Of a stretch of DNA of 64,000 nucleotides, positions 3,401 to 51,970 are shown one piece after another. The stretch comes from Muricea muricata. Lineage: Eukaryota; Cnidaria; Anthozoa; Malacalcyonacea; Plexauridae. Numbering within the stretch: the stretch's first letter is position 1; the number at the start of each line of letters is the position of its first letter. The notes beneath the pieces were generated by a model. The model made no database searches and was not told the DNA's origin. It saw only the letters and a list, made by a program, of their open reading frames with translations. The stretch is from contig OY979717.1 of the NCBI GenBank assembly GCA_963855995.1, positions 45,620,044 through 45,684,043 on the forward strand, in the 5' to 3' direction. Both the position numbers and the translations under genes were made by a program.

Positions 3401-6400
3401 TTATATCAACGATTTTTTTTTTCATTTTCTAGTATTCAAAAAGAGCATGCAATACTGTCAAAGAATGAAAACGAGATAACTATCCAGTCTTGTGGCAATT
3501 CTAAAGTTCTTGTAAATGGTGAACCCCTAACCGAAAAAGAAACATTGCATCACAATGACAGGTAAGAATGTATTGCATTAACAAAATGAACAGCTGCGAC
3601 TTCCGTCGTGCCCATGCTCTTCACTCTACGCTCCTACCTCGCTTCACGGTATAAATCAGCGGCGAGCTTTGGTAGGAATGTAAAGATAAACAGACACGCG
3701 ATACGCGCTCGCAGGAAATTGTAGGTTGAAAAGTTGACAAAAATACAATAATACAATTACCATTATTTTGAAATGGAGTTCAATCACTTTAATTTTGTGA
3801 AATTAACATTAGTAAAATTTCAATACGAAAAATTCCCAGTATATATAGGTAATGCATTAGACAAACGCGTAATCAGCCGTGTTTGTAAGAACTTTTTGTT
3901 TGTATAGTATCTGCTCGGCGAAAAAAGTTTTTTCTACGCCTGAGCATGGGTGCAAACGTTCGCAAAGCTATAAGATCTTTTAGCACCTAAACGAAACAAG
4001 TATAGTTACCAAGTATTTACCAAGTCAATATCCTGCACTTCGATAATATGTTCATAGCTCTTTCTTCTTCTCAACATTTCGGACATGTCTACCAGTGATT
4101 ATTACCCTAGTCAGTACTAATAACTTTACTACTGTATTCTTTACCAGAATAATGTTTGGTTCAAGTCATCTTTATGTGTTCTATCATCCACAAGAACTTG
4201 AGGAAGCTAAGGCGAACGCAGCTGAAATTGAAGAAGTGAATTATGAAATGGCGCAGGAAGAAATCGCGCAAAATTCAGGAGTAAATGTTGAAAAGGGAAC
4301 CGACAAATCGAAAGGTGATAAAAGTCTTCGACCATATTAAGAAAATATATGAAAAGTGTGATACTGCTGGAGGAATCTGGTGACAAGTTAAAATTCTTTG
4401 GCAATTCTGCAGGATCGGCTAAAGTCTTGTTTTAGACTAGACAAAGGTTTTAAACATCTTTCCGTGCTCTTTCGTCGACGGTTATAGGAATGTCGACAAA
4501 CGTTATCATTCCATGCTGGAATTTGTCGGTCGTTTTCGAGCGTTTTCACATCCAAAATAAAAGGATATCAACTATAAAAATAATCATGACATGAAGTGTT
4601 TAGTTTGTGCCCGGAGCTGTTATAAGATAATTTAACTAACTAACATCAAAGTCAATGTACTCCAAAAAACTGTTCTCAGGTATACAAGCTAATTGAATTA
4701 TGTGTTACGGAACAATATTAAACTATAATAAGTATTCAAAAGGAATGAACATTACGCACACAACAGTACATACAAATTAGGTTGTGAAGGGAAACAAATG
4801 AAAAACAAACAGAGTGATGGAAAAATAGATAAAAAAGTTGACAAAGTGAAGCAAACAATACACACGTTTCCGAGGAAAAGATAAATGCATGTGGGAATAG
4901 AGCAGATGAATAAATATGTTGTCAGTCATCTGTCAAGTTATGTATACCCGAAGGCGCCAAAATTATCTTTTGCCTCAGCAACCAAAGTTGTTTGTTAAAT
5001 ATTTGAGTATTTATGGATTATCTTGTAGCATTTCAAAAGAAAAGTAGTAATGCATGAACTTTGTACTTACACGTGTGTATTCTTGAGGCTTTGCTGTCAA
5101 TCATTGATAAAAATATTTCACGCGGTCAGGTAATTTAAATGTTGCGTCATCAAAAAGGTATTTTGTAAAATTTAGTTTAAAAAGGTCGTAGTTCGTAAAG
5201 TAAAATGTATGTGCGTAAAGTTTACGACTTTTCCTGAAAGATGATTAAGTAGAATTTAAGTTTAAGCAATATAAATAGTAAAAATAGCGAGTGTAAGTTT
5301 GACTTGAGAGTTGTGAATTCCTTCGGCAGCAGTTCGTCTTCCGTCTCTAGTTTCTCGTATCCTACAGGAATGCAGCGATATTTTGGAGGTCTGTATTTGT
5401 TGGGGCTTTTTGATTTGTATTTTGAGAAATCAAGTTTCTCTGGCTCGTTCGTAGGTTCTGTTTGGGTGCCAACGTCTTTACTGTTTTGTTGAGCTTTTTT
5501 CGTAGATGATGGTTTTGTGTCCGTCGGCGGGTAGGGACAAAATATTATAGGTAGATAGACTGTATAGGTTGGAAATGAGTCGTGGTTCATACCAGGTTAT
5601 GTAAAAAGTTGACAACAAAGAAGAACGCCGTTCCTCCACCACTGTTATAATTTATTTATTTATTTCTACGCGAGGTAGGAGATCTTTACAATGTTTTTCT
5701 ACAGTCTCTATAGCTCATCGTTCTTCTTGCGTCTTTTCTTGTCCTGTGTAGTCTTGTGTTCTGTCTTGAGTATTGTTGATGACTTTTTTAGTGTCTCTGC
5801 AACTGCTTACTGTCGACTACTTGCTAGGTCCCCACTTTTATAGTCACGGATAGCTACGCTTGCTATACACGTGGACAGTTGAGTGGGCTGATTCTGACTA
5901 ACCAATCAGCTTTCGACAGTCGTGTATTGTAGTCTTGATTCCAGCTCTCTACGCTTGTTTGTGTAGGGCGTTTTCACAACTCTCAAGTCAAACTTACACT
6001 CGCTATTTTTACTATTTATATTGCTTAAACTTAAATTCTACTTAATCATCTTTCAGGAAAAGTCGTAAACTTTACGCACATACATTTTACTTTACGAACT
6101 ACGACCTTTTTAAACTAAATTTTACAAAATACCTTTTTGATGACGCAACATTTAAATTACCTGACCGCGTGAAATATTTTTATCAATGATTGACAGCAAA
6201 GCCTCAAGAATACACACGTGTAAGTACAAAGTTCATGTATTACTACTTTTCTTTTGAAATGCTACAAGATAATCCATAAATACTCAAATATTTAACAAAC
6301 AACTTTGGTTGCTGAGGCAAAAGATAATTTTGGCGCCTTCGGGTATACATAACTTGACAGATGACTGACAACATATTTATTCATCTGCTCTATTCCCACA

Positions 6401-17561: not shown

Positions 17562-20500
17562 TTCGACGAACAACAACTCTATATACACATTTATTTTGCG
17601 CTATTCTGCGCAGCTAGTCCATTCGTAATTGAATTTAAGGGTTTTTGTACATTACAGGCTGCGAGCAGGCTGAGGTTTTTGTACATAATTATTTTAACAA
17701 ACCCTGTTAAATATGGCACCTGATAACATTCTATACCTAAAATGTAGAAATATGCCACTATTGCAAGTTCAAATTTAAGTGTAGTCTTTCAATACACGAC
17801 ATTTTTGCATGGTTCATGCTCTGGCGTGCAAATACCAAAATGGGTGTAAACACCAACCTGAAATGATCAGGCTTTGTGATTGGACTTTTAAAACAAAATT
17901 CATCATTGTTTCTAATTCGTTCATTAGAGAAACCAATTTTCATACTTCTTTGATTGTTGTAACCAATCACTCACAAAGCTTGTTAGGGTTCAGAGAGGTA
18001 GGTTGGTGGCAACCCTATACAGGGTGTATAAAAAAAAACGGAGCCCATCTTTTGTGTCAAATTATTTCGAAATTACTGAAGCTTATAGCACAGTTTTGGA
18101 CTTGTTTTAAACCACGTTCTTTTCTCTTTCGAACAAGCCGTAATTCGTATTTTTACTCCGAGTAACGTATGTGCTATGACAAATTTAGTAAAAGCTATCG
18201 ATTTGAGATGCTTTCCAATTATGCAAATTCACTATGTCTTTCATGGTCGCCAGTTAAATTTTTATTTTTTCGCTTATTACATAAATGGTATTTCTGTTAA
18301 ACTTGTTATAAAGCTTTACAGAAGATAACGGACCGTTAACGTGCACTACGAACGGATAGTTCAAGCTTGTATCGACTTCATGAATGTTAACATTATACAA
18401 TTTCGACAACATTGTGCACGCGCGGATAAACAAAACGCTAATTTCGATCATTATTTTGGCATAAATCTAAGGTTTTTGTTGATGTAAACGGTCCGTTATC
18501 TTCTGTAAAGCTTTATAACAAGTGTTATTAACTTTAACAGAAATACCATTTGTGTAATAAGCGAAAAAATTAAAAATTTAACTGGCGACTATGAAAGACA
18601 GTGAATTTGCATAATTGGAGGGCATCTCAAATCGATAGCTTTTACTAAATTTGTCATAACACATACGTTACTCGGAGTAAAAATACGAATTACGGCTTGT
18701 TCGAAAGAGAAAAAAACGTGGTTTAAAACAAGTCTAAAATTGTGCTATAAGCTTCAGTAATTTAGAAATAATTAGACACAAAACATGGACTCCGTTTTTT
18801 TTATACACCCTGTAGAATGGTTGCATTTCAAATATGTACAGTACCTATATGTACAGAATATAATCGTATGCAAAATAACCGCGTGTAGTCGTACCTAAAG
18901 GTGACTTATGTCACTGGAAAAATAGTGAAATCTTGTATTTTTAACCGATTAATCAATAGCGACGCCATCTTGAGTTTTAAACGTATCGCAATGCATTGAT
19001 GGAAGTTAAATTATCCTTGTGAAAATCAGTAATTATTTACGAAAACGCAAAAAAATGAGCGTGAAGAAGTCTGTACATGTGATACAGATTTTTCTGGATT
19101 TGCATAGATTTTACTAATAAACTTGATTTTCAAAGTTACTTCGATAATGGATCTATGAAATTGATGTCAGAGTTTCACAGGCCATTTACGACATTCAAAC
19201 CTGTGTTGTTTCAGCTCGAGTGTGTATGTCCGACACAACATGGCCGCTCATGTGGTACACAGTGCATATTATTTTCATTCTGCAGTATGCGCAGTAGTAA
19301 TAGCATTGTATGAAAATTAAATTTCGTCAGATCCATACAAATTCAAAGTAAACTAATTAAACAAAATCCATTGGCATTGGTATTGGCAGGGTGTATTCCA
19401 ACGCGATGGGGTTTTTCTATACCTGAGGTATCTTTAAGCATCCTTGAACATGAAGTTGTAAATATATAGCTGTATCGACGTACATCTTAGTGGTGTAAAG
19501 TATAGAATTAGCATATATAGCTTTATTTAGAAACCAGGCTATGCCTGGGGTGAAATGATTAATTTTCCCGAATTGCAATTGTTATTTATTGACATATATT
19601 TATTTCTTTGTAAGTAGTTTCGCATAGTGATGTATAACGTTGAAACACATTTTAATGTCCATGCTGTTTGTGCTCTAAATACGTAGTCTTTAAATAAAAC
19701 GAAGATTTGTAATTGTATTACATTATGTGAACGAACCTTTTAATTGTTTTATACAATACCCCTTACTTTGAATAATACATTTTTGTTGTGTACCAGTTAT
19801 CTATGTCCCGAATGAACACAATTTTTGAAATGTTGACATGTCAAAACAAAAAACTAGAACTAACTTAATTTATTAACAAAGCACTATGTGCAACACAAAA
19901 GTGTAAAAGAACTTGTATTAAATTTAAAAAGTTTTTATATACGCATAATGCAGTAAAGATCTTCGTTTCATTTCGGCACTTTACTATATTACAACATGGT
20001 AAATATCGTACTACTGTGTTTTAGTAAGGGTTTTAAAATTCTCCTTACAAAATAGTTTTTCGTTTCACTTACATCACAATAGCTCGATCTAAGCCTATAA
20101 AATCTTATTCACTTATTCTATTTTGTTGTCACAATTTAGACAGAATGTAATAAAACGGAAACTTTTATGATACAACGAAAATAATTGTGTTTTCACACAT
20201 TTTCGTGATTTTCCAAAAAAATGTTGTATATTTTATAAATGTAAGTCGCATGCGCTACTTATTCTAGCGTATTTAATGGAGTAAATATGTGTGATGTCCC
20301 ATTTCAAATTTCGTGTGTAGCTGATAAACAGAATTAAGTGAAGGTGTTGTCAATCGTTCTCGCGTACGCTAGACTAAGAATCCCATGCCAGTTTTGGTAT
20401 TAGTGCAGTAGTGTACATCAGCTTTAAAACTGTTAAAAACTTTGGGTGTGTTTGTCGTCACACGAGCACTTTAACATAAACGCTAGATAATCGCATTTGA

Positions 20501-20658: not shown

Positions 20659-23600
20659 TTATACAGAGTCCAAATCTGCCGAGTCTTCTAACCGGGACAT
20701 ATCTTCTACAAATTTAGAACGAAAAATACATTTACTAAAATAAGTCATGTACATGTCACACATTGCACATACAATAACGTGTTGCCAACACACCCATTCC
20801 CGTTTACCTTCTAGCATTAACATTTCATTAATAGCATCCTTTGCCAAATCATCCGTCAAAAGCACTCTGGAAAAATAATGGATTCTGATCATATTCTTGA
20901 GTGAAAGAAAAAAACCTTCATTGCGCTCAAATGTGCGATTTTAGTTTTTTCGTGGTCCATATTCCAAGTCAGATAACTCAGACTGATGATCATATATAAT
21001 GATGATCATGATGATAATGATGATAATAACGATGGCGTTTGGATGGTGTTGATACGTATTATACAATGACGTAGTTTTTTAACTTACAAATCTTCTACTG
21101 GCGCAGTCAAATTGCTTTTGTTCTTGATTACATGCAATCCTGTGAAACACAAATCTTCGTTACATTGCATTTGCAATGTCTTTTCTTATTTTCTCAAGGT
21201 ATATTGACACTAGTCCATAAAATTTTTATCGCAGTTGCGCTCTCAATGTGAAATACATCATAAAGTTAAAATCGATAGCACGAAAATTGTGTGGTCATTT
21301 ATTCAACGTAGAATGGGTTTTGATTTTCCTCAATGATTGTATATTTCTATATACTAAGGAAAATGTTTAGCAAATCCACAATGTATCTGACATAGTCCAT
21401 AACATTGAACTTGGCAAATCCATAGCAAGATAGTTTTATACTATTGATTGTCAATTTTTTTCCAATACAGTGGCTGCTATCAAAAGCGGGCATAGCAAGG
21501 CTTCGACTGGAACAACTGCATTCTCCGGGGTTCAGCTCAGCTCTCATAAATAACTACTCCCTTATATACACATGTCAGGTTACCCTTCAAGTCAACAGAG
21601 TCATTGCCTTGCAACGCTCTTTCCATTTCTTCAAGTTCTCGTCGAATAGAAATCTCACAGTCTTCTTCTAGATCTTCTATAAATGTTTTGAAAAAACACG
21701 CATGTTAAGTAGCGTAATGCCACGTCTACCATGTCTACCATGCAAGAAGGAGAGCCTAATATCTTTATAGATTTTTATATGTTTTACCTTCGGTAGGGAA
21801 AATTTGTGGTGAATTTGGATTAGAACTTGGAACATACTCATCTTCCAAAATTTTCAAGCTTGACTTGCAATATTGTTCACCAACAGAGGCAAAGTCATGT
21901 GGCTCATAAAAAGTGAGGTCAGTTCTGCCTGGTAAAGGTGAATGTACAGTCGTCTGTGATTCATCTGCTTCAGCAGCTGGCATACTGTGTTGTTCTTCTA
22001 TGAATAACTTGTTCTCGGCTATGATCTGGTCGTATCCAGTGGTACTTTGACAGATCTGTTCTTCTTGTACCGATGTATTTGTGTCTGAAATAGTTGTTGC
22101 GAGGAATGGTGAAACAAACTTCTTTGGTTTTCTTTTCCTAGATTTCTTTTCCTGAGGTAATTTCTTGAGCATTGGTTGAAAGGAAACTGTATTTATTTCT
22201 TCCACCACCTCAGTGTCGTTATTTTCTTTCGAATTGACGATACCAGGATTTGAGTAGCTAGTTGTCGAAATAGCAGTTGCCAAAATAGATCTGGATGTTT
22301 CAATTGTTTCTCGTTTCCTTTTTCTGCTTTCCCACGATGATATTACTTCTTCGTTGAACATTTGTTGCGGCGAGATCCTTTTTGGATCTGTGTCGAAATA
22401 ATGGCCATCTAAATTTCTACTGCTGGAAGTACTGCCATGTGAATTACTCGATTTCATTCCTAGTAGCTTTCTTGGTCGGCCCCTCTTCTTTGGCAAAATC
22501 GAATTACATTGATGTCCATCCTGATGTTGTGAGTTTGGCAGTTGTTGACTTTCTGTAAAAAGGATTTGTATTGTTGAGCAAAAAAATACTAAATTTATGT
22601 AGCAGTTGTACAATACAACAGTGGATATCAGTCTATCGCGCATTTTTAAATTCTCATGAGTCTTGATTTTCTTAAAGTCCAAACATATCATTTGTCTTTC
22701 ATTTTTACAGTAATGGCTTGAATCGGACAGAAATGTTTCCCCCAAAAAACAGTCCGAATGAAGCTCAATCACAGTTTGACATTTTGGTGGCATTAGCATT
22801 TGGTACATCTTTAGAGGCTGCGAAACGAAAATCCACTGCTCATTCTTTTGTCCATGTATACAATCCTCTGTCAACAATAGCATTTAAAACAAGTATTTTC
22901 TTGTAGATATCTTGTGTAGGATAGTTTTAAAATTAGCACGTCATAGCGTTTAAAATATAGTCTTTTACAAATCTGGGTGATCTGGAAGGGGGCAGTCTCG
23001 TAGCCAATGCCCGGTCCTCTGTGGAGGAACGCGAAGCTCCGGGAAAATGCAGATGAGAACAATCTGGCTGTTTGATAATTAGTCTGACCGATTTCCTTCA
23101 ACAAAATTCGGGCAATTTTAATTATTGCTGAGCCTAAAGCTTTATTATTTCGTACCCGATGGGAATAACAGATGATAAAGCGAGCCTTTAGTGTGTAATA
23201 TCTCTCATCGATTGACAGAGTGCGATTTTTAATTTTTCCATTTAGTAGTGCAGGCTATATATTATTAAGGGAATTTTTTGTTGCTTATTAGTACACATAG
23301 ATCATTAATATGTACAAATTAGCAACACAATAAACAACAACAAAAGAATCCCATATTTGCTTTGTTTTAGTATTATTTATTGGAGCAGTCAAAAAACATA
23401 GACCCAAATTTAATTAAGCTACGTTCTATGCACTAATCAAGGGAATATAAAACAAGTTCCGATTCTTCAAGAGTAAACCATCTTCAACGGTTGAAATATT
23501 GCGCACCTTCGTATTGGATCAGACGGTAATGGAATGCAGCGAATTTGTGCATTCTTCTAGGCTTTTTCCCAGAGTCTCACGATTCCTTCACACACGATCG

Positions 23601-26600
23601 CGGGCTCTGGTTACGAGATTGCTTGCGGGATGCAAATGCCTGGGACTAGTAACCAAACAAAAAGGGTTGGTCGGAAAATGAAAGTAAATATGAGCGAGGT
23701 GGCTCGTCAAATCTCGTGTTCTCGTGCGAGTTCACAAGTTGTCCGAAATTACAACCGCGCTTTTGACGAGTTGCTGCATATTATTATAACGGCTAAGATT
23801 TCGAAAACGGCTAAAATTTCGAAATAAATAGCTTTTCAATGCCAAAAAACGTGACACAAGATTATAAAATTAATATCGAAAAATAACGAAAGTGATTTTG
23901 AGCTCATGGACTATAATGATTATGTAGAATTTTTCAGCAACAGTAATTTTATTCGTAAACACACTCCCGTTCGGATCGGCTAAGACGAGCTGCGTCTAAA
24001 AATAATTGAAAATACTTAAATATACATAATATTGAAGACTTGTTGAAAGAATCGAAAGGTGAACGAAGTTGACGCCAATATTGCGAAATTCGTTTCGAGG
24101 GACGTTGTTGTATGCGCACAACTCGTAGCCGGACGTATAAAGCTGTATCCGTTTATTACTGAACCCAAAGTATACCTTGTCCTTCCTTCATCTTCAAATA
24201 CAATTCAAAATCAAGAAGGTGCCTATGACCAAGAAAAGAAATTATCTTCTGCTTTGATAGGTAAAATGTTCCTTAACATTGCATTGCGAATATAATATGG
24301 GTGTAATAAAACGACAGATACAATATTTGTTGTTATTTCACAGCTTTTCTCAGGGACCGCGGAGCAGGGTGGCTGGCTGGGCTAAAGCCCCACCAATAAT
24401 TTTTGTTCAATACATATGTTTGCATTAAAAATATAAGAATCGAGGCAAAAACTATATGCCACTTTATCATGATTGTTGAAATTAAAAGTGTTTCCAGGCA
24501 TCTCAGGGCTCTTGATTTCAAAAGTTTCCCCTCTAGATATCTCGCACCTTCGGTGCTCGATTAGCCCCACCAATAAAAAACCGCTCTGCGGTCCCTGATT
24601 TCTTGTTCAGTAGTCTTGTTTTGTATACATGTACCTTTCATAAAATTCCTTTAAAATATTCCCACTTGGTTTGTTTTGCAAGTAAACATTTCCTGTTAAA
24701 CCTTTCCATAACGTTAACCACATATTCTTTCTGCAAATCTATGTTTAAACAGAAATGATATACATCATGATATACACAGAACATTACCGGGGAATGCGAA
24801 GATATGAATTTCAAGTGGTGAAAACAAATCATCGTTTAATGATTATTATTTTTCTTTTATGGTAAGCATAACAATTTAAAACCGTAAGTCAATATATAAG
24901 GCCATAGAAAATAAGATTACTTATTGTATATATACAATAAATTATTGGGATTGTTACGGTTAGGGCTAGGGTCAAGGTTCATTTATATGCATCTAATTAT
25001 AATTCCAACAACTATTGGAATTGTTAAACGTCATCGATAATACATGCTAAAGTTGATTCCACACGAGAAATTACTTTTTCCTATGTGGAAATGGAAGTCC
25101 TTTATATACATGAAAAGACAATTTCACATCTGAGATCAAATGTGAAATTTTCATAAAGGTTATACATATGATCAAATGGCTTCCTAAAAACTATGTTACC
25201 TCGGTAAAACCTCCATGGCTTTTTACCGTCTGAAATATTTCGTGCAGATCAATTGTTGTCCCACACCATACTGGGTATTTTATTTGATCAACTTTCACAC
25301 CATTCAGAGTAGTGAACTGGTGAAATTCTTGTGAAAATCTTGTTCCTTCTTCTTTCTTTGTAAAAAGAAATATGGCATTTAAGAAATATAAAACTTTTTT
25401 CCGTATTGATATACATGCTGTTATATCAGCACACATGGAAATTGAAAATAACGAAATTTGGTGAAAACACTGCGCCCGAAACTTTCCGTGCTTACATTGA
25501 GTTATGTCTACACGGCTCCTAACCAATCAGCGTTCAGAATTTACAAATGCTATGCTATAATGTAATGGAGGAAAAATACATGTTGTAAGGTAAAGGGTAA
25601 AGGCAAAAATATTAATGGCTTTTTGTGGATCTTTTCACGATATTTAGCGACATACGACCATATTTCCTTACATTCATATCTCGAGACATGTTTTCTTTCA
25701 GACAAGACTGGGTACCTACAAGTAAAAACATCTGCATGAAAGATTTTGAGTATGCGAGATCTGGAACAGATTGCTCAAAACAAAAGTCAACATTGATGTA
25801 TTAAAGTAAATTACCAAGTGCTAGTTAAAATACTGAGCATTGCGTGTTCCTATATTGTAATTAGTTGAATTGAGCTAAATCGCTTCATCAATCCAAATGT
25901 GTGAATAATCCCCCTCTTATTTTATTGACAGGCTTGCTGCAAGTTGTTTTCAGTTTTCACAAGTTGCAACAAGCATGTTTTTTAAGTTTTAACAGGTTTC
26001 AACTTGACGAAATGGACAAGTTTGTGGCAACAAAGCGGTAAAATTGACGACTTGCAACAAGACTGTGATCTATTTAACAATTAGATTACGAGCTAATCGA
26101 TTGATCATAGTTAATTCGGGCTTTGCCCTCAAAAACATATGCCTGAATTTGAGAGAAATAATCGATTTTTAAGTCCTTTTGCGACAAAAAATTTACAAAT
26201 TGTCATTGAATTTTACAAAATACACCAGAAAAATTATTGTTTTGCTTCTCACTATCTATCGAGCAATAGATAGCGAGCAGAGTAGCCAATCAAATTACAG
26301 CGTTGCATTAGTATGCTAGTATAATTCTGCTAAGACAGCATAGATGTAGCTACAGTAGTGGAATCTCATTGTTAACTTGAAAATATCTTGTTTTGGTACA
26401 ATATCATATCTTGCAGGGCTGTATAAAATATTTTGAAAATATTTTCGGCAAGTAAACGCATGAAAATTTGATAAAAACCAAACAAAATTGTATAAATAAG
26501 TAGTAATGCAAAATACACCATGAATGCTCTTATAAGCACGTAAGTAGCTCTTTTTATCCTTACCTATCTCTATCATGCAACTACTCCCTATGATAAACAT

Positions 26601-29074
26601 TAATTGTCTGTTTTATAGCCTTGCGAAATTTTCTTAAAAATAGCAGATGATTCAAAGTGAAGACGGGCATTGGTTTGTAGACGAGAATTTAAGAAATAGA
26701 AATTTCGTAGGGTGCTTGCTGAGTGACATATTAATTAGCAATTAGACAATGAGCATGAGTTGTTTATGAGTTGATAGTCAACAAGGACGTAGTCCGAGTT
26801 CTATCTGTTCGGAGAGAACGATGACAAGTATTCCTATCCAAAATACAAATAGCACTTCAAATCACGTTTTCTTCGCTTGAGGCTTTTTGTTTACTCAGTC
26901 ACAACTTAATCTAGACGACAGTCCAGACACAGCTCATGACCGCCATATTTATCTTTTTTGTAGTTATTTGGGCTCTTGGACTTGGGGTATATTATTTTCG
27001 ACAAACTCTCTCGAAAAACTTGCAAAACAAACGTTTGCCGCCATTTTGTTTTGTTCTTTTTCTCAGCCATAGTTTATCACAAAAGTCTGCATTTGTAATA
27101 GTCCACGACTAAGTGTATACTACCGCCGAACAGTGGTGCTAATGTGAAAAACACTGACTTAAATTTCTGTATTTTCCATTCTGTGATTTTACGTACCCTC
27201 GGCTTTGCGTCAAGTACCCCAAAGACTGTCTTAGAATCAGAAAAACATACAGTATGCTCGCCTCAGCTATGCGAAAAGCCGAGACAGTGAAACATTGTAT
27301 TCAGTGCATGATAAAAATGATATTAAACTGGTTTTATGTCACCTGTTCTCAAAGTCGACAAAGATCTGAACGCGCATCTTCGAAGTCTTTCTTCACAGGT
27401 CAAAGGTATCGAGTTAATAGCGTCTTCCATTGCGATGTTATATGATCTTTTCCACTTTGATTTAATGCTCATTTTTTCGCACCCAGTGTATGGAAATGCA
27501 TTCTTCACTTGTACCCACGCGTGAGTTCTTGGCCGACCAAAAAATTCAACATGAATATGAGTGAACTCTTCCTGCTCATCGTTGTCATTTAACACGGCGT
27601 CATAATATTCGTCGCAATTTGGATCAGGAGTGATAATTGCTGGCCAACTATGAAAGAAAATGAAGTGATGATTTTGACTTTGCACAAGCTATCAAAGTTG
27701 ATGTGTCTTTTCGAACCGATATCATTTTGTTATTAAGGTGGCGGAGACTTGAACGCACTTTTGATATCATAGCACTATTTCAGCTTTCCTTTTACCATTT
27801 AGATACTATTTAGGCATTAGAACTCAACGGAATTACTGAGGCATGTTAAAATTAATGCTAAATCCCTCTATAAAAACCTTTGCTGATTCCAAATATATCT
27901 TTACCTAAAAAAAACACATATTACTGGTAAACAATCTTAGTATGCATTCAGAGTTGCAAAAAGTGTTCAACATTCCTCCGAGCAAAATTTTAAGTTTGCA
28001 AACTTTCCTCAAAATATTGTAAAGCTGGGCTTTCTAAACTGAAGATCAAAATCAATCTTGGGAATGAATCAATATTTTTTCAGGAAGAATGCATGGTTTT
28101 CTGGAATAGATCATCATCTATTATTTTTTTTTATGTTAGTGTTTAGGTTAGTGTTAGTGTTTTGCAAACCTTCCTCACGGGTAATACCCGAATACCCGTG
28201 GCTTTTTTGCAACTCTGTATGCATTACGTCTTGGGGCTCAGGAAATTTGTTCTACACAATATTAGTGAAGGAAATAAGTGAATAGAAATTACATATACAA
28301 CAGAATCCTATTTGTGCCAGGATTCACTCATGCAAAGATAAATGAACAAATTCTAAAATTTCAGCCACATCACTGGAGTTAAGTGGTGGTAAAAATATTT
28401 CCCCAAATGGGCAAATAATTGGTCCATTTTTTTTCTCGCGGTCCGAATCTTTTTAAAAACAAAGAACATTGTGAATTTAAAACTCGCGCGGTCTGTACGG
28501 CCTAGCTCACACGGACCACTCGTGTAGCCAATCAGATTGCAGAAAAGGCTAAAATATGATTTCGGACCGCAAGAAAAAAAAATATTGTTATGTCTTGTTC
28601 ATTAGTCTTGGTACTAATAATGCTCCTATTGTTGCTTATGTCCGCATTGTTTTCAACTTTAATTCGAACAATGAGATAACAGGCGGTCCAATCTCTGGAT
28701 GTATTTTGAATATATATTTCTACGCACCACCCCGTCGGCTATCACCTCATATAGGACTCGAGCTCGTAGAATAACTCTTAATTATAATGCGTTAATTAAG
28801 AGTTATTTATGGTCTTTACTTACAGACAATATCCTGCCATTTTTGCCATGATAATTTCGCCTTTTTCATACGGCAGTTTTGTCACGACAACCTTTTTTCC
28901 ACGCGGAACGTCAACTTTTTCCTCCGCCACGGAGCATTTGTTGTGGTGCCTATCCTCGTTCATGTCGCATGTCCATGGGATATCTGCATATTTCGCTGCG
29001 ATATCGTCGCGAACAACCCTCCATTTACCGCACGCGTTTCTGCCACACTGAATCCAAGTTCTTTTACAGTCCAT
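20659..29074 (-). CDS. CW zinc finger - PWWP - ARID - AT-hook chromatin protein
   Basis: Exons on the minus strand: 29074-28824, 27647-27343, 25351-25200, 24738-24635, 22552-21788, 21676-21584, 21139-21088, 20866-20659. All are GT-AG. Frame is verified at every join except 24635 to 22552, where at least one short linking exon remains unresolved. Residues 7-47 form a CW finger (WIQC, CGKW, IPWTC, HHNKC; zinc Cys 10, 15, 36, 47). A PWWP follows from about residue 72 (GEIIMAKMAGYCLWPAII, HVEFFG). ARID starts near residue 188 (TRFSQEFHQF, IKYPVWCGTTIDL, GGFTEICRKNMW, LKEFYER). The large exon has an AT-hook (KKRGRPRK) and basic KRKR and KSRKRKPKK runs. CW domains read H3K4 methylation and PWWP domains H3K36 methylation, while ARID and AT-hook bind DNA. 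A nuclear role is inferred. The start could also be at 29122. Confidence 0.82.
21000..21035 (+). repeat. GAT/ATG-rich microsatellite
   Basis: An imperfect run of atgatgatcatgatgataatgatgataat lies in an intron of the minus-strand gene. Confidence 0.7.
24349..24598. mobile_element. Short inverted-repeat element ending CAGGGACCGC
   Basis: cagggaccgcggagc at the left faces gctctgcggtccctga at the right, and taaagccccaccaataat is answered by a second, direct copy of agccccaccaataa near the right end. It sits between the ARID-C exon and the AT-hook exon of the minus-strand gene. Confidence 0.75.
24938..25020. repeat. Dispersed repeat copy, inverted relative to 32985-33085
   Basis: ttattgggattgttacggttagggctagggtcaaggtt matches the complement of aaccttgacccaaaccctaaccctaatcgtaacaatcccaataa near 33030. 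The internal TTAGGG-like units are part of the repeat and are not telomeric. Confidence 0.7.
26068..26310. repeat. Dispersed repeat, copy 2 (see 8990-9195)
   Basis: It shares ttaacaattagattacgagct, gatttttaag, acaaattgtc and ctatctatcgag with the copy in the kinesin intron. This copy also has catagataggtag-like symmetry near its right end (ctatctatcgagcaatagatag). Confidence 0.65.
26564..26587 (-). other. Candidate 24-nt microexon of the CW-PWWP-ARID gene
   Basis: Between the PWWP and ARID exons, a 24-nt minus-strand segment is bounded by tcatag and gtaagg and keeps phase 1 on both sides, so it could add eight residues (G-SSCMIEI) without a frame change. The direct join of the flanking exons is also in frame, so this may be alternative or spurious. 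Confidence 0.25.
27944..28228. mobile_element. Inverted-repeat element with TATGCATTCAGAGTTGCAAAAAG ends
   Basis: tatgcattcagagttgcaaa at the left faces ttttgcaactctgtatgcat at the right. The interior carries a second hairpin (acgggtaatacccgaatacccgt). It lies in the intron between the CW and PWWP exons. Confidence 0.75.
28430..28578. mobile_element. Short inverted-repeat element with TCGCGGTCCGAA ends
   Basis: ttttttctcgcggtccgaat faces atttcggaccgcaagaaaaa. The interior has agcctaggccgt-like GC-rich symmetry (gcggtctgtacggcctagc). It has no coding potential. Confidence 0.75.
28772..28806. repeat. Small hairpin
   Basis: taactcttaattataatg faces gttaattaagagtta, within the first intron of the minus-strand gene and about 18 bp from the donor at 28823. 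Confidence 0.6.
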
Positions 29075-29311: not shown

Positions 29312-32300
29312 ATGGCTGTCAGTGCTAGTGTTGTACCATGTTGTGTTCTGAATTCTGGTTGCTCAATGCCAATGATGGGATGTAAGTTTTTTAATAGATG
29401 TTTATACCATGCTTTTATGTACCAGTCATTGAGTCAATGGTTTGCCTCAGGGAGAGTGTAGCGGACAAACCATTGAGATTTATCACGAGAGCTATAGGCT
29501 GAGCAACAGTTACTTGTGTCTCTTAGCTCAGAAGATAGCTTGCTGTGTGTGGGTGTCTATGAGTTTTATGCCTTGTGCGACATTTTCTCTCGTAACAAAC
29601 ATGCTGATATGCAGGAAAAGTTTGCATGAAGCAAAAAACTTTGTAACATCTAGCCAAAGAGTAGAGACTACAAAGAGGGACCACTTCATTCAAAAAAGCG
29701 TAAGATGTTGTCATCATGATACGTCATGGGCGCCATGTTCCTAGCCAGTGCCCTAAACAGAAGCATTTCCCCCCGGGATTAGTAGCCATTTTTGATATTT
29801 CCAGAAGGTGACTTCCTCTGTTTAGGGCACTGGCTAGGAACATGGTGCCCATGACGAATATTGCAGCTCATTCCCCCCAGAAATATTAAAAATGGCTACT
29901 TATACCGGGGGTAAATGCTTCTGTTTAGGGCACTGGCTAGGAACATGGCGCCCATGACGTATCATGACGACAACATCTTACGCTTTTTTGAATGAAGTGG
30001 TCCCTCTTTGTGGTCTCTACTCGAATCTAGCTGCACAAAGTGAGCTACTGACTGAGTTAATATGCGTCAGGTGACTTTTGCTCATTTGATAGCCCTCATG
30101 TGTGGCAGGCTTAATGGAAATTGTCAAAATGTCAAATCAAGTTGGTTTCACCAATACCCCCTGGCCTCTCCCTGGGGCAAACCTTCCACACAATGTATAT
30201 AGAGGCTGGGCCTGTTTATATTATGCTACTTACCTGGGACAGGGTAGTTGTGAGGCTTCCACACAAATGTAAATTCTGCTGAGTGCTTATATGACACAGC
30301 TAATTCCACATGGTTCTATGAAAATCCTGGAAAGCCTTTGAATTTTAAATGAAATCCTATGCCTGGAATGAAAATTGTTATGCTCTTGAATTTCTGTAAC
30401 ACGTATCTATAGTGATTGTGCAAAAAAGACTTTTACATCAGCACTTAGCTATGTAGCTACTGGCTAGATCACTAGTAAATGCGTGCATGCAAATGCATAA
30501 CATGTATGTATCTATAGTGATTGTACAAAAAAGCTTTTTACATCAGCACTTAACTATGTAGCTTCTGGCTAGATCACTAGTAAATGCATGCATGGCTAGA
30601 TGACTCTTTGGCTGAATGGCTACATACATAGCTATGTGACTACATGGCTATTTGGCTATGTGGCTACATGGCTGTTTGGCTATGTGGTTATATGTGGCTA
30701 CATGGCAAACCATGAATCTAACCCCAACACCTATACTTCATTGCTGAATCTGACCCTAACACCTCACCCTGAATCTATCCCTAAAACCTAACCACGCATC
30801 TTCCTCTAATCCTAACTTTATTCCTAACCTTAACCCTAACACTAATAATAACAACTACTTCTAACCCCAACCCTAGAGCCACGTTGCTAATGAGAGCATG
30901 TGTATGACTGTGATGTGCCCTACTGGACTGTAGGGTTGCCAAATCCTGTACATTTGCTAGGACTTCAAATGGATATTATGTTAAAATAACAGGAAATTGC
31001 AATTCAGAGGTTCTAGTTTTCAAAAATTTCCCTCCAAACCTTGGCCCTACCACTTTAAATTACACTATGTTGTCATAATACATATTCTGGCAGCTCTGCC
31101 CACTTTGGGGCATTCTTAACACTGCACTTATTAATAGTACCTGGACTTGGTACTTTTAGAAGTCAAGTGCAGTGGTTTGTCAAAAGTCTGGCTGTTTTTG
31201 TGTTCCCTACCTAGTTGTGGGAGTCTGCATCATTGCGTTGAGCATAGTTTATTGTTTTCGGCTTGTAGAAATAAAATGTTTTACGAAAATCTCAAAACGG
31301 TCCATCAAGAAATGATTTGTCTGTATTTCACGGGGCTGGCATATTATAGGTAGCAGAGTCAATGGAAAAGTAGACAGCGACATGGACCAGCGGGAATTTT
31401 GGCGTGATTTTTGGCGTGTTGTGTATATTCTACAACTGTAGCTTGATATATAATGTACTCCACCCAGTAGCGGGAAAAAAACAGTTTAACAGTTTACGTG
31501 TCATCTGCGTTACATGTACAATTTGTTTACAGATATATATGTATATATGGAATAAATCAATCATGATTTCGTGGCACTTCATTCGATGTGGAATAATTTC
31601 TGAAGCGTAAATGTGTTTTAATTCGAACGGAAATCATGCAGATAACGCATGCCGAAATTCAAGTTCGAAACAGTTGAGAAAAATTATCATGGACTAAAGG
31701 TTCTCAGTGTTTTCAAATGCGACTGCAACTGTACGATTTCCGACCATTTCCGACGTTGTTTCAAGGCGGGGTCAGTTTAAAGATTTTCGTCCCAGATTCG
31801 GGTTTTGTTATATATACGCCATATTGACCGCCATGGTCATTTTACCCTAAAACGTTTAAGATGTAATATATCAAACGCGACGGCAGTGTTTCACATATGA
31901 CATATGAATATACTGCGCGCAGCGAAGGTTTTTGACGAAATTTGAGGTTTTTGGATGGCCAATGAAACATTGTCTGGAGTGTTTTCCTACGAAGCAATCC
32001 AAAGCAAAGCGAACAATCAATTTTTCAACCGAAGCGGTTCTATGCTAATTAAGACCGGGATATCCAAACCTCCTTCGCGTTTATGATTTTGCTTGATTTG
32101 TTTTAACTTGTTGAATTATTAATGATTTGAGAGTGGCAAATAAAATGCATAAACGAAGTGTAGATTAGGACAGTGAAACGTTTATAGAAGGGATTGAATG
32201 TATCTTAGAGTGAAACGTAGCTAAAATAAGTGTAAACATACTTGTAGCCAAAAAAATGTCAAAACCCTCTTGTGTATGTATTATTATAGTGGGAACTTGG

Positions 32301-35300: not shown

Positions 35301-38300
35301 CTTTTCCTTTGGGCTTTGCTGGCAATCTTAAGCTTGAATATTTTAACCTCAATACCTCGCAATCAGACGTAAATGTCCCGCTAGTCTTGCTGATATCTGT
35401 GGGTTTTCCTTCTCACTGGGCATATCTCGGAACTGATGTAAAGATGAAGCGTATGCCTTCACTTTCTGCTGTTATTCATGTATACCACAGTGGAGATTTC
35501 GATGTAATGCTAAAATTGTGAGCATTTAGTTTTTCCCTAACTTTAAAAGCGCCTAGGCCATCAAGTTTTTGTCGTTATTTTTCACAATATCTTGAAAGCA
35601 CAAAACACAAATACATTGACATTTCCACAGCGACTTTAAAAACAGCAATACTTGAAAACATATTTGGGAAAACCTACAAATTAGCTATGAAATAGCCAAT
35701 GAAAAATAACAGAGAAAAATAAAATAAATCTTTTCAGCCAATCACATCGAAGTCCTTGAATGTGGGAAAAAATCCACTTGACATGGAACACGATTTTGTA
35801 TGCAGTTTAGCAGACTACCTTTCCCCGACTTTCCTGTGGGAGGAGAAAGGTACAGTAGTCTGCTCGCAGGTTAAACGAGGTTTTCTGAGTTTACTTTAAC
35901 GTTTTAAGAAATATTCCATTTTTTCCGACCCATGTAAGGTAATCCATGAGCTCTTTGGATTCTAGTTTCCACCTTTGGGATTCCGAATCTGTAAGGATGT
36001 ACAATCCAAAAAAGGTCTTGGATCCTGGATTCTTCAAAAGGTCGGATGCAAGACAACTGGATTAAAAATCGTAATTCTGGATTATCTTACATGCGTCGAA
36101 TATTTATTACTAAATAGGTAAAAAATAACCCAACGCATTTGCTATTTTTTTCAGCGGCACCCGCCTAGATGTTGTCATCTGTGAACAGTTACAAAATTGT
36201 TATTTTGAACATGTTATTAATTCTTCTTACAGCTCCAGGTGATCAAGGTTACGATTCTGCGTATAGTGCTTGCCTGCAATCCATTGATAACTTAGGATGT
36301 GAATATTTGGATTTGTATTTAATTCACTGGCCTGCGGCATCAAAATTGAAGAGAGAAGATCCAAAGAATTTGGAATATCGATCACAAAGTTGGAAAGCGT
36401 TGGAAAAACTTCAAAATGAAGGTGATGTCCCCATTTATTTGATTTGTATAAACTACTGTGTGTTCGACAAAGTTTCTTTGAAAATTTCAATCGTTTTTCA
36501 TTAATTAATTGACCAGTTTTTGCCATAAGTTTGCCCTTGATATATCATAAGATAAAAAAACATTTTGATCATTCCGTTAAATGTTTCATGTACAAGTAGT
36601 GGTGAGTTTTTATTTGAAGAACGGAGCCCAATGTGGAAAACCCTGCATATAAAATAATCACGCATTCATTCCAATGATACAAGGTGTCCCTCCAAAACCC
36701 GGAACCATTAATAAATCATTTGACAATGTGTATATCCTTTACAAATTCTTTATTATTTTGAATGGAATGTATTATTCTATCTTAATGGTTCCAGATTTTT
36801 GAACACCCTGTAATGCTGCAGTCTGATGACTGCATTAACTTAAAGTAAACTGGAACGATAAGTCAGGGACCCCTCGGGGGGGGGGGGGGTAGTTAAAGGC
36901 AAGTTGATTCAATTTTACTATGCGGTTTGAATTGACTTACTGTAAAAAATTGTGCTGTATATTAGATGATACTTTGCCTTCATTTACTGTTAATTTTAGA
37001 AATTAAATTAATTTTTTGTCGGCAATTTTAAACCTGTAACAATCTCGTAAATGCGAAGCGATGTCCACGATTGCCTTATCCTGCACGGGTATTGACCAAT
37101 CAAATTACATGTTTCGCTGTTGTTAGTTAAATATTTTTGCGTAAGGCAGTCTTCATAAGGAGACGGGATTCGCAATGAGAGACAAAGAACGTTTGAAAGA
37201 AATTGAGATAAAATTCCAGGAACTGTGGAGATCCGAGCTGGGCTGGGTTTGTTAGGACAATGGAGCGCCTGTGTTGGAAGAACGCTAATAGAAAAAAATC
37301 GTGAGCAATTGCTTTATTTTGAGTTTTCCTTTAAGAAGGCTGCGATCGCATTGTTTTCCTAATCTAAAAAGGGATTGATTGCCAACCACTAAAGTATCCA
37401 TTTTTTTATTTTCATGTATTTTCTGTTAGGTCACGTGAAATCTATTGGTGTATCGAACTACCTCATCCGACATCTTGAAGAAATGAAGACGTATTCATCA
37501 GTTGTTCCAGCAGTAAACCAGGTACTATTTTTTAAACAACTATTTCAAGTAGGACTGTAATAAAAAAGCAAAACTTTAATTAGAATTTTTGATTTGATCT
37601 GTATTGTTAATGGCTTTATTTAAAACAAGTTTCTGGACTATAATTGTTTTAACAGAACTTCTTTTTTCGTCTGAAATATTGTTACATGGAAATATATACG
37701 TACAGTATTTTTCAAGCCTGAGTAAGTACTTCTGAAGTAGTCCCCTTAAATAGCCCCTCTACCAACAATCTCGTATCCAATGCGCAAATAAAAAACCGGG
37801 ACCCCTATATTTTTGGGTTCCGGTTGTTGAAGGCATGCTTCACACGGGAAGACAGAAATACAGACTCCAGCGTAGTATTGTATTCAATAAACAGTCAAGG
37901 TACAACAATGAAGATTTTCTACCAATAAGTCCTCCGATTTGCCTGATTTAATGTTTACTTATAAGTGTATTTTTTTGGAAAAGGTATGTTTTAAAATTGC
38001 TAAATTATAAATAGTAAGGTAAGAGTTGTAAAGTGAGGGTGGTAAAGGGTTTTTTCGTGAGCCGTGAATTGCCAATATTTGCTGTTGTGAAATGAGATTT
38101 GACGAATTTTTGTGTCGTGAAATGTGATTACATGCCTATTCCTGAGCCGTGATTGACAGCTAGACGAGTAAGGATAAGTGCTAAAGAACGAAGTACAATG
38201 CATTGGTTACAACAATTTTACTAAATGCATTTATTTTCTTCATTTTTTCTACATATGTTGGCTGCTTTTCAAAAATTCGTCTGAATTTGAGCCTTCAATG

Positions 38301-48700: not shown

Positions 48701-51700
48701 GCTGTTTATGGAAAAATTCAATGGGAATGTGATGGGATAGATGCCTGTTTTTGCATAAGCCTGGACAAGAACGTATAGCTTTTAAATTCTATTGTGTTCT
48801 ATTGTCCATACAGTGTATTTACTGTGATATATTATGTTTATTAATTTATTTGAATATATATTGTGTTAATTCATGTACTGTACATGCATGATAATGTCTT
48901 TATATGGATGACAATTATGGATGACACAATTGAAATTCCTGTTCTGGTAAAATTATTTCATATTAATATGACATTGTAATTTCCAGGTTCTTCTAATCTC
49001 GTGGTGTACAAAAATAGTCAATGGAGGACCGCTGGGTATGACTTTAAGTCGAACTGCTAAATTGTGCATTTTTGAAGACACTAGAAAAATAGACATGCAA
49101 ACCCTCAGTATTTTTCAATCCATATATTCTCTCTAATCTTTTCAAAATTCTGAACCCCAAAGGCCAATTCCAGAAATCTTGACACCGCAGATTGGGTGTT
49201 TGAACCATTGATAGGTATTAAAGCTGGGTAGCACAGCGAAGGTTGGGTTTTGAAGCCGGAAGTGCGTCATATTTTTAGACTTGCGGCCATGTTGGATGGC
49301 TCCACTTGAGCAGCAATGCTATAGATTTCTATTACAGGATTCATAGTTTTCATTTTCAAATAAAAAACTACGTTTTAAGGCAAAATCTTTAAAAGAAATC
49401 AGTTTTCTAACAGAAACTACATCGATTCGCTCTATGCAACATGGGCGCCGATCTCAAAATTTCAATTGTATTTGGGTTTTTTATTACGATGCACTATCCT
49501 GTCTTAATACATTTTAATGGTTTGAACATCAAACAACGTCTTCCACTAACTCGATGGTATTTCTTAACCGTTCAACCTTATTCCGTGATAGCTTGAAAAA
49601 TATGGTGTTAAACGGTCTTCGTAGATTGCAATCTTAGCTGTTTGCATGCTATTTACCTATTTCTTCCTTTAACCATGGTGGCAATATTTTCCCTTTCCTA
49701 TTTCCTGTATATTTCTCCATTTCAAAAGGACTGCTATAGCGAGGAGTCAAAAGCGTAACTTTCCCGCAACAAATGTCGATGTCGCTCATAACTCATTTCG
49801 CCTAGACAAAACTTTGAACATCTGACCGATAACAGTAGAGTTGCCAAAAAGAATGAAGGCATTCACTTTAATATAGGAATATATTTGATCTAACAGAAAA
49901 ACTATAGGACATATATCACAGTTTTTATAAATATACATGTACCTAGATGTGTAAATATCGACTTACCACAATAATTTCAGTATAATTTTTGTAAGCTTAG
50001 ATCCAGAACTAAATGAAATTATACTTTGACTGGCAAATTTTTAAAGACGATAACAGTCTATAAGAGATGAACAACCTGCTTAACTGTTTTAGCTACTTGT
50101 TCTTTATACCAGAACGTTGCGTGTATGGTAACGGTCCGCCTTCTTCGATAAATTTAGCACACATATTAACATTGTTTTATTTGGCGTATTTGTCGTTATG
50201 AATATTATTTCACGTTTATTTGTTAAGGTTGTACGGCAAGCAATTCAATTGAGCTAGGAATGGAAGAAGGACTTATTCTGTGGTCACAACTATCTGCTTC
50301 TTCGTATCAAAATGGATACAATGCTTCTCGTGGGAGATTAGATAATAATAATTTCTGGATGCCTAGAGACGATGATAGTGATCCATGGCATCAGGTTGAT
50401 TTTGCAATTACATTGGACTTAATTAAGTTACAAGTGCAAGGCGCGCCACGTGACGCCCTTTTCGTGCAAAACTTCACAGTTACCTATGCTAATTCAAGCG
50501 GAATATTCCAAAACCTTACCAGCGGCGGTATGATAAAGGTGTGTAATTAATAAACAGTGGTATATTACAAGGTTATTTACTTGAAACAGACTCGACGTAA
50601 TGTTATAAAGCATACAGTACCACAAATGAGGGTCTCCCAGTGGTTTTTGGGAAGGTTGGGGGCTAGGATGCTAAATTTCCAACCGCGGGGGTTTGGATTC
50701 CCCCCCTCTATTTTGCAAAAATTAGATGTCGGCTAGGTTTTATCTCCTAAACACGACTATGACCTCCTGATGGAATTTTAAATGGTCTCACTTTTGAAAA
50801 CGGTGATAAATTCCGAGGATCTCTGAATATTGAGAAGTTTTAATTTTAAAAAAATATATGCCACTGGTTTTCACATACTACTCACATTTAGAATTGATTT
50901 TCTCATGATTAATAGAATTCTACTGCATATAATGTTGTTCTGATAAGTTCGCAAACAATATATTCTATTATAGAGCAACGATATTTAACAATTATTGGAC
51001 GAGGTTGAACACGATATGAAGAATTATCGTATAAGCCCGAAGTTTTCGGTTATTAACTGAAGCCGAAGACTGAGGCTAATAACGTAAACTGAGAGCTTGA
51101 TCATTCTTCATATCGTGCAAAATTATTTATATAAAATATTCAAAATATTTTAATACGTTCTGCACCTGTGTGTTTAATTTTTCAAAACATGTCAACTTTT
51201 CTTGCTCGTTAAACAAAATTTCTTACATTCTTTTTTCAAAGTAAGTATACTTCCAATCCATGTCAATGTCTTTGGTCTGTGTTGTCGTTTTTAAGGGTTT
51301 TTTGTCAAAAAATGTGCGAATAGTCGTAGCCTGGTCTCTGCCATGTGTGTATTGCGTTTTTCCAAATTCATGAATAGCACGTATGTCATTACCAAATTGT
51401 TAGCTAGCACATGGCTAACTTTTCTAAAACCTTGCCATTAGGTATTTAGACATGAGTACAATGCGCATGTGATGACAAGGTTCCTCATTTCTGCGTTTAA
51501 ACCAAATTTAAAAACGAAACCATTTCATCTATTAACTATGGTTTTGTGAAAAAAAATAAAGAATAGCTAACTCTATATTTTTGCATTTACATATCAAGGT
51601 GTTTTCAGCAAATACTGCTGCCAACGATCAGACTGTTGATGTCGTTCTGCCAGAGGTCATTTCAGTTCGTTATTTTCGATTTCATCCTAAAAGTTGGCAA

Positions 51701-51970
51701 GGTTGGCCAGCATTAAGACTGGAATACTATGGCTGCTATAAACGTAAGTGTAATTTCGTCCCGCCGTATATAATGTTGATGAATTTGCTAAAGCTAAGAC
51801 TTTTTCAAACGCAAACATTGTGTTTTTCGCTCACAGATGCCCAGTGTAGAAATATTAAAATACCCAATTTTATCCAGTACTCAAGACACAAAATTCAAGG
51901 CAGTGTTTTGACTGAACTTATGTTGCGATGTCGACTCTGTCTTTTTAAGATGTCTATGTATTTGATGTGA
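45724..51970 (+). CDS. Secreted protein with one F5/8 type C (discoidin) domain, 5 exons
   Basis: Exons: 45724-45774, 48987-49035, 50228-50538, 51599-51743, 51837-51970. All are GT-AG and in phase, giving about 229 residues. Residues 1-31 form a signal peptide split over the first two exons (basic MMARFYK, then SIFATSLAVS and VLLISWC). The discoidin domain runs from about residue 35 (GCTASNSIELGMEEG) to 182 (RLEYYGCYK). It has the domain-closing disulphide Cys pair and the typical ILWSQLSASS, FWMPRDDD, WHQVDF, VRYFRFHPKSWQGWPALRLE. These domains bind cell-surface carbohydrate, lipid or matrix. A 44-residue tail with four Cys follows (HAQCRNIKI, LRCRLCLF). It faintly recalls the start of a PAN/apple domain but is too short for one. 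Single-domain secreted discoidin proteins are common in invertebrates, so the role in adhesion or immunity is open. Confidence 0.88.
46040..46200. repeat. Hairpin repeat with TTTCGCCGGGAAGTTAGTGGCGAAA centre
   Basis: aacagaatacgacatttcgag faces ctcgaaacgtcgagttctgtt. The centre is tttcgccgggaagttagtggcgaaa. It is related to the fragment at 12475-12570. Confidence 0.7.
51025..51120. repeat. Hairpin MITE
   Basis: ttgaacacgatatgaagaat faces attcttcatatcgtgcaaaa. The inner arms (cgaagttttcggttattaac) pair with gaggctaataacg. It is in intron 3 of the discoidin gene. Confidence 0.8.

Follow-up and report, generated by a model that had tools for sequence, protein, structure and literature searches.

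A predicted ZCWPW-type protein carrying an ARID domain and an AT-hook behind its CW and PWWP domains

The minus strand of the window (the whole 64,000-nucleotide stretch of DNA analysed here) carries a predicted gene that runs from an ATG at 29074 to a stop codon ending at 20659, the strand and outer limits that a first-pass annotation had already assigned to it. Our splice model divides this gene into nine exons encoding a protein of 606 aa (606 codons plus the stop), with AG acceptors, GT donors and phases that are all consistent, and a single transcript is predicted to run across all nine exons. The encoded modules follow each other in the order CW, PWWP, ARID and AT-hook; a basic region rich in serine comes next, and three short exons of acidic sequence close the gene. 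The mean G+C content is 40% in the exons versus 35% in the introns, with exon 4 at just 29.8%, below the intron mean.

Exon 1 (28824..29074, this and all following exons on the minus strand) provides the ATG, the whole CW domain and the first strand of the PWWP domain (aa 1–83), so that the linkage between CW and PWWP is independent of any intron. At its 3′ end the splice model breaks the PWWP motif in phase 2, between GYCL and WP, and exon 2 (27343..27647, aa 84–185) supplies the rest of the PWWP together with the region after it. The ARID is in turn assembled from three exons: its initial part in exon 3 (25200..25351), which is backed by the splice model and by a genome-wide match of its own, its second part in exon 4 (24635..24738), modelled as ICRKNMWLTLWKGL...ILKEFYE, and its final helix HLLDFELYLK in exon 5 (24176..24222). 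A broken ARID had been suspected, as exon 4 leaves off in phase 2 and the AT-hook exon must be entered in phase 1, and the 47-nt exon at 24222–24176 (phase 2 in, phase 1 out) solves both. This exon was searched for as an in-frame exon giving the last ARID helix; two candidates came through the filters, and the acceptor of this one is the better of the two. Exon 6 (21788..22552, aa 287–541) encodes the AT-hook PKKRGRPRKL and the long serine-rich basic region. Exons 7 (21584..21676, phase 1 in and out) and 8 (20808..20864, likewise phase 1 in and out, and with a repeated acceptor AG) each encode an acidic segment, while exon 9 (20659..20705) encodes the terminal segment and the stop codon; these last three follow from the splice model, without domain support.

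The PWWP and the ARID become whole only once their exons are joined, which supports the join of exons 1 and 2 and those of exons 3, 4 and 5. For the join from the ARID to the AT-hook and for those of the last three exons, phase and splice sites are the sole support. A possible cassette exon of 34 aa between the PWWP and the ARID (25773–25672) came through a crude splice filter and was left out of the model; the same filter yielded no candidate cassette exon between the ARID and the AT-hook.

Several repeats surround the gene. An inverted repeat with 143-nt arms (29659–30022, 96% complementary) lies some 600 bases upstream of the ATG and has a foldback or transposon-like appearance, another with 203-nt arms (18031–18802, 95% complementary) lies downstream of the gene, and a tandem repeat occupies 30403–30594 (two copies, 87 nt). 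Pfam matches were obtained for five of the ten other open frames scanned in the window, corresponding on the plus strand to a kinesin-associated region (369–770), an aldo-keto reductase (36169–36501) and two F5/8 type C domains (50227–50547 and 51560–51967, the second under the cut-off), and at 4047–4337 to a weak WPP match under the cut-off. An ARAGORN search of the window for tRNA genes gave no hit. Elsewhere in the genome, the mitochondrial contig (C74, 19,292 bp; locus L018) carries rns together with cox1 on one strand and, adjoining cox1 on the opposite strand, cox2, atp8 and atp6, the latter three named by eye from their reading frames. This arrangement fits the common octocoral order, and a cnidarian source is therefore plausible. 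One nuclear contig of 124 Mb also contains a copy of cox1 that is interrupted by a single stop codon (L019, C1:38414782-38416095), probably a mitochondrial insertion.

The first-pass annotation had proposed a profile search of the spliced protein, and a Pfam-A scan to E = 1 returned exactly three families, in the order zf-CW, PWWP and ARID and each above its curated cut-off. The zf-CW match covers residues 6–53 (profile positions 1–47 of 47, E 5.1e-12), the PWWP match residues 72–162 (positions 1–90 of 93, E 3.2e-13) and the ARID match, on the spliced domain, residues 190–277 (positions 4–89 of 89, that is 86 of 89, E 6.4e-13). Chance domains were ruled out, all three being complete and far over cut-off. 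A pattern search located a single AT-hook core (KKRGRPR) at residues 308–314. The earlier proposal that CW, PWWP, ARID and AT-hook stand in this order in one protein, with two DNA-binding modules behind the CW-PWWP pair, thus holds for the spliced model. A NCBIfam scan of the C-terminal 426 residues gave one match, far under the cut-off. In a six-frame search of the 453-Mb genome the CW exon was recovered on its own (E 1.1e-10), as was exon 3, the first of the ARID exons (E 3.3e-4; its 29.5 bits exceed the cut-off). The window PWWP was absent from the eight exon-level PWWP matches of this search, probably owing to the intron inside its motif.

Individual residues of the CW and PWWP could be followed by alignment. 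In the CW domain, W7, C10, C15, C36 and C47 align with the ZCWPW2 (4o62) and ZCWPW1 (2e61) chains, the four cysteines being the zinc ligands and W7 the first tryptophan of the CW cage. The PWWP motif reads GYCLWP, so that neither the initial proline nor the tryptophan after it is preserved, with the cage positions retained: Y82, W85 and F119 align with Y233, W236 and F266 of NSD2 (phmmer against full-length NSD2, 29hg_B), described as the presumed H3K36me2 cage (PMC10955146). The aromatic positions are therefore kept, as the first-pass annotation had stated, even though the motif itself is altered. NSD2 and MSH6 are the best PDB matches of the window PWWP, but the Pfam scan of the window protein gave no SET, PHD or MutS match. 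NSD-like PWWP exons were located by eye elsewhere in the genome.

The intron that separates the PWWP from the ARID measures 1991 nt, the longest of the eight, and is compatible in phase. This phase match is weak evidence, since the exon 3 acceptor sits within AAG repeats that offer several alternative acceptors, one of which would fit by chance. One might then envisage two adjacent genes in the same orientation, one encoding a small CW-PWWP protein of about 190 aa, with its stop at 27326, and the other an ARID/AT-hook protein starting just upstream of 25351. Such an arrangement would agree with the continuation of the frame past the exon 2 donor to the stop at 27326, with the open frame upstream of exon 3, which contains an ATG, and with a sea-anemone relative that the consulted text of a survey discussed below describes with CW and PWWP only. 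However, this ATG is in a weak context by eye, the exon 3 acceptor is pyrimidine-rich and in the right phase, and no AATAAA or ATTAAA occurs within 1.4 kb past 27326, so that we consider two genes unlikely. The single such signal on the minus strand between 27326 and exon 3 is at 25926. Poly(A) signals are nevertheless a weak guide at this locus, as AATAAA is present several times within the ARID-to-AT-hook intron and the sole signal past the stop at 20659, in a scan to 20000, is an ATTAAA at 20277. One gene running from the CW through the ARID and AT-hook is likely.

Compared with PDB chains, the window CW matched ZCWPW2 first (4o62, E 1.5e-9, 41.3 bits), followed by ZCWPW1 (32.2 bits), in line with the earlier view that CW plus PWWP constitutes a ZCWPW-type module. 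A MORC origin of this CW was considered and rejected on its lower PDB scores (at most 23.2 bits). In human ZCWPW2 the CW is likewise located near the N-terminus. A profile search of the genome identified at least four CW loci, namely that of the window and three others (L001, L002 and L004). On visual inspection L004 is similar to the KDM1B type, and L001 has a MORC3-like CW (best PDB match E 2.7e-20) that still reaches 51.7 bits against ZCWPW1, indicating that CW bit scores separate the families poorly.

The remaining locus, L002 (C8:10487621-10490725, minus strand), proved to be another CW-PWWP gene, whose CW exon is followed by exons reading ...GSLVWAKVPGYPW and then WPGMVEDDPD.... Joining three exons of L002 gave a 114-residue piece with matches to zf-CW (E 2.8e-15) and to PWWP positions 1–27 of 93 (E 1.2e-8; the remainder of this PWWP falls beyond the part of the locus analysed) in Pfam, and scoring 43.5 bits against ZCWPW1, 40.2 against MORC4 and 30.8 against ZCWPW2 among PDB chains. 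The L002 CW exon alone matched MORC4 first (3.8e-9) and ZCWPW1 second (2.2e-8); a MORC gene was considered for this exon and set aside since PWWP exons follow. Both the window gene and L002 are interrupted by an intron at the same site, after base two of the codon for the second motif residue. None of seven other PWWP loci has an intron there (seven of the eight loci of the genome search were compared, L014 being omitted as a near copy of L013): six are uninterrupted through the motif, and L010 apparently starts an exon one codon earlier. This common intron site, together with 31 identical residues in 89 aligned columns (35%), suggests that the window gene and L002 are likely paralogues. Their split may correspond to that between ZCWPW2 and ZCWPW1, a matter on which CW bit scores are no proof. 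Judged from these sequence comparisons, the best reading of the locus is a ZCWPW-type reader with a ZCWPW2-like CW to which an ARID and an AT-hook have been added.

For the ARID, the best PDB match is KDM5A (E 2.1e-6), followed by dead ringer, other KDM5 proteins, ARID2, ARID3A and ARID5B. KDM5A is an H3K4 demethylase, and although KDM5A/JARID1A has its ARID in common with the window protein, the Pfam scan revealed no sign of demethylase domains in the latter. More generally, none of the partner domains of the known ARID subfamilies (1–5 and KDM5) appeared in the Pfam scan to E 1, which contained zf-CW, PWWP and ARID only. Four more ARID loci were found elsewhere in the genome by profile search.

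Both vertebrate members of the ZCWPW family resemble the window protein in having a CW followed by a PWWP. ZCWPW2, which is also the best PDB match of the window CW, is named with these two domains only in the consulted text of PMC8892340, whereas the window protein adds an ARID, an AT-hook and a long tail. ZCWPW1 is described as a reader of H3K4me3/H3K36me3 at PRDM9 sites (PMC7494361, PMC7237205), with SCP-1 and a putative methyl-CpG-binding domain, rather than an ARID, as reported extra regions. The presence of just these two genes is said to track PRDM9 clearly across vertebrates, by authors to whom the molecular function of ZCWPW2 was not known (PMC8892340).

The first-pass annotation knew of no described family with this domain order. 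Within the limits of titles and the starts of abstracts, the open-access literature agrees with this without proving it: no protein uniting CW or ZCWPW1 with PWWP and ARID was found, and the matches for ZCWPW2 with ARID did not contain one either. The co-mentions of CW, ZCWPW, PWWP and ARID came from cancer or epigenetics papers, both original studies and reviews, from work on histone modifiers in plants, and from one study each on vessel expression and on goat breeds. The protein could nevertheless be an ordinary ZCWPW orthologue, with an ARID and AT-hook that are old in invertebrate ZCWPW proteins, present in public proteomes under the ZCWPW name and undiscussed in papers. We regard this as quite possible, though short of an even chance. 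It would fit with the two ZCWPW1 papers as far as their accessible text goes, which treats vertebrates, but a survey of plant and animal PWWP proteins that included Nematostella (PMC3457860) makes no mention of ARID anywhere in its main text, a weak counterargument, as it comes from a single species and a gene set of 2012. The same survey groups Nematostella XP_001633052 with human ZCWPW1, reports a zf-CW in both, and in the consulted text describes the Nematostella CW-PWWP protein with CW and PWWP only. This grouping conflicts with the statement that ZCWPW1 emerged in jawless fishes (PMC7237205).

Taken together, the nine-exon model, the three complete domains, the retained cage, the proximity of the CW to ZCWPW2 and the intron shared with L002 support our preferred explanation that a single gene probably encodes a nuclear ZCWPW-type chromatin reader of H3K4 and H3K36 methylation that is anchored to DNA by its ARID and AT-hook. 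By analogy with the respective families, the CW finger would bind tails methylated at H3K4 and the PWWP those methylated at H3K36, while the ARID and AT-hook would grip AT-rich DNA near the same nucleosome. This would place the protein where both marks coincide with accessible AT-rich DNA, and the long C-terminal region might then recruit or position partners. The least certain part of this explanation, offered as a hypothesis, is the identification of the marks with those of PRDM9 and of the sites with those of meiotic recombination.

The protein might instead be a general transcription-linked reader, acting at active promoters and gene bodies without a tie to PRDM9 or meiosis. H3K4me3 and H3K36me3 are also found outside recombination sites and proteins with an ARID or AT-hook are mostly transcriptional, and the nearest PDB sequence to the ARID is, as mentioned, that of KDM5A. 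In the consulted literature the single expression clue for a cnidarian relative nevertheless points to the germline, as a meeting report lists Zcwpw1 of the hydroid Hydractinia among predicted markers of germ cells (PMC12172373). A general transcriptional role appears conceivable but somewhat less probable than not. Hydractinia Zcwpw1 may correspond to L002 rather than to the window gene.

Full-length PRDM9 homologues have been reported from cnidarians and sponges (PMC13186367), and concerted evolution and positive selection from the fingers of Nematostella Prdm9 (PMC2779102); in the accessible text of a coral genome paper (PMC11577847), PRDM9 is mentioned only as a mammalian speciation gene. 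A bolder version of the DNA-anchored reader would be that cnidarians have two CW-PWWP readers, that ZCWPW1 and ZCWPW2 split before vertebrates, and that the reader of ZCWPW2 type comes with a DNA anchor of its own, reading the PRDM9 double mark while choosing AT-rich hotspot DNA. We deem this full combination improbable, slightly more so because the L002 CW exon alone matches MORC4 first. If true, it would imply a direct link from the marked nucleosome to the break site that was lost or replaced in vertebrate ZCWPW2. Such a cnidarian relative, equipped with DNA-binding domains of its own, would provide a test of the age of the PRDM9 reader module, and of whether mark reading and DNA choice once shared one molecule.
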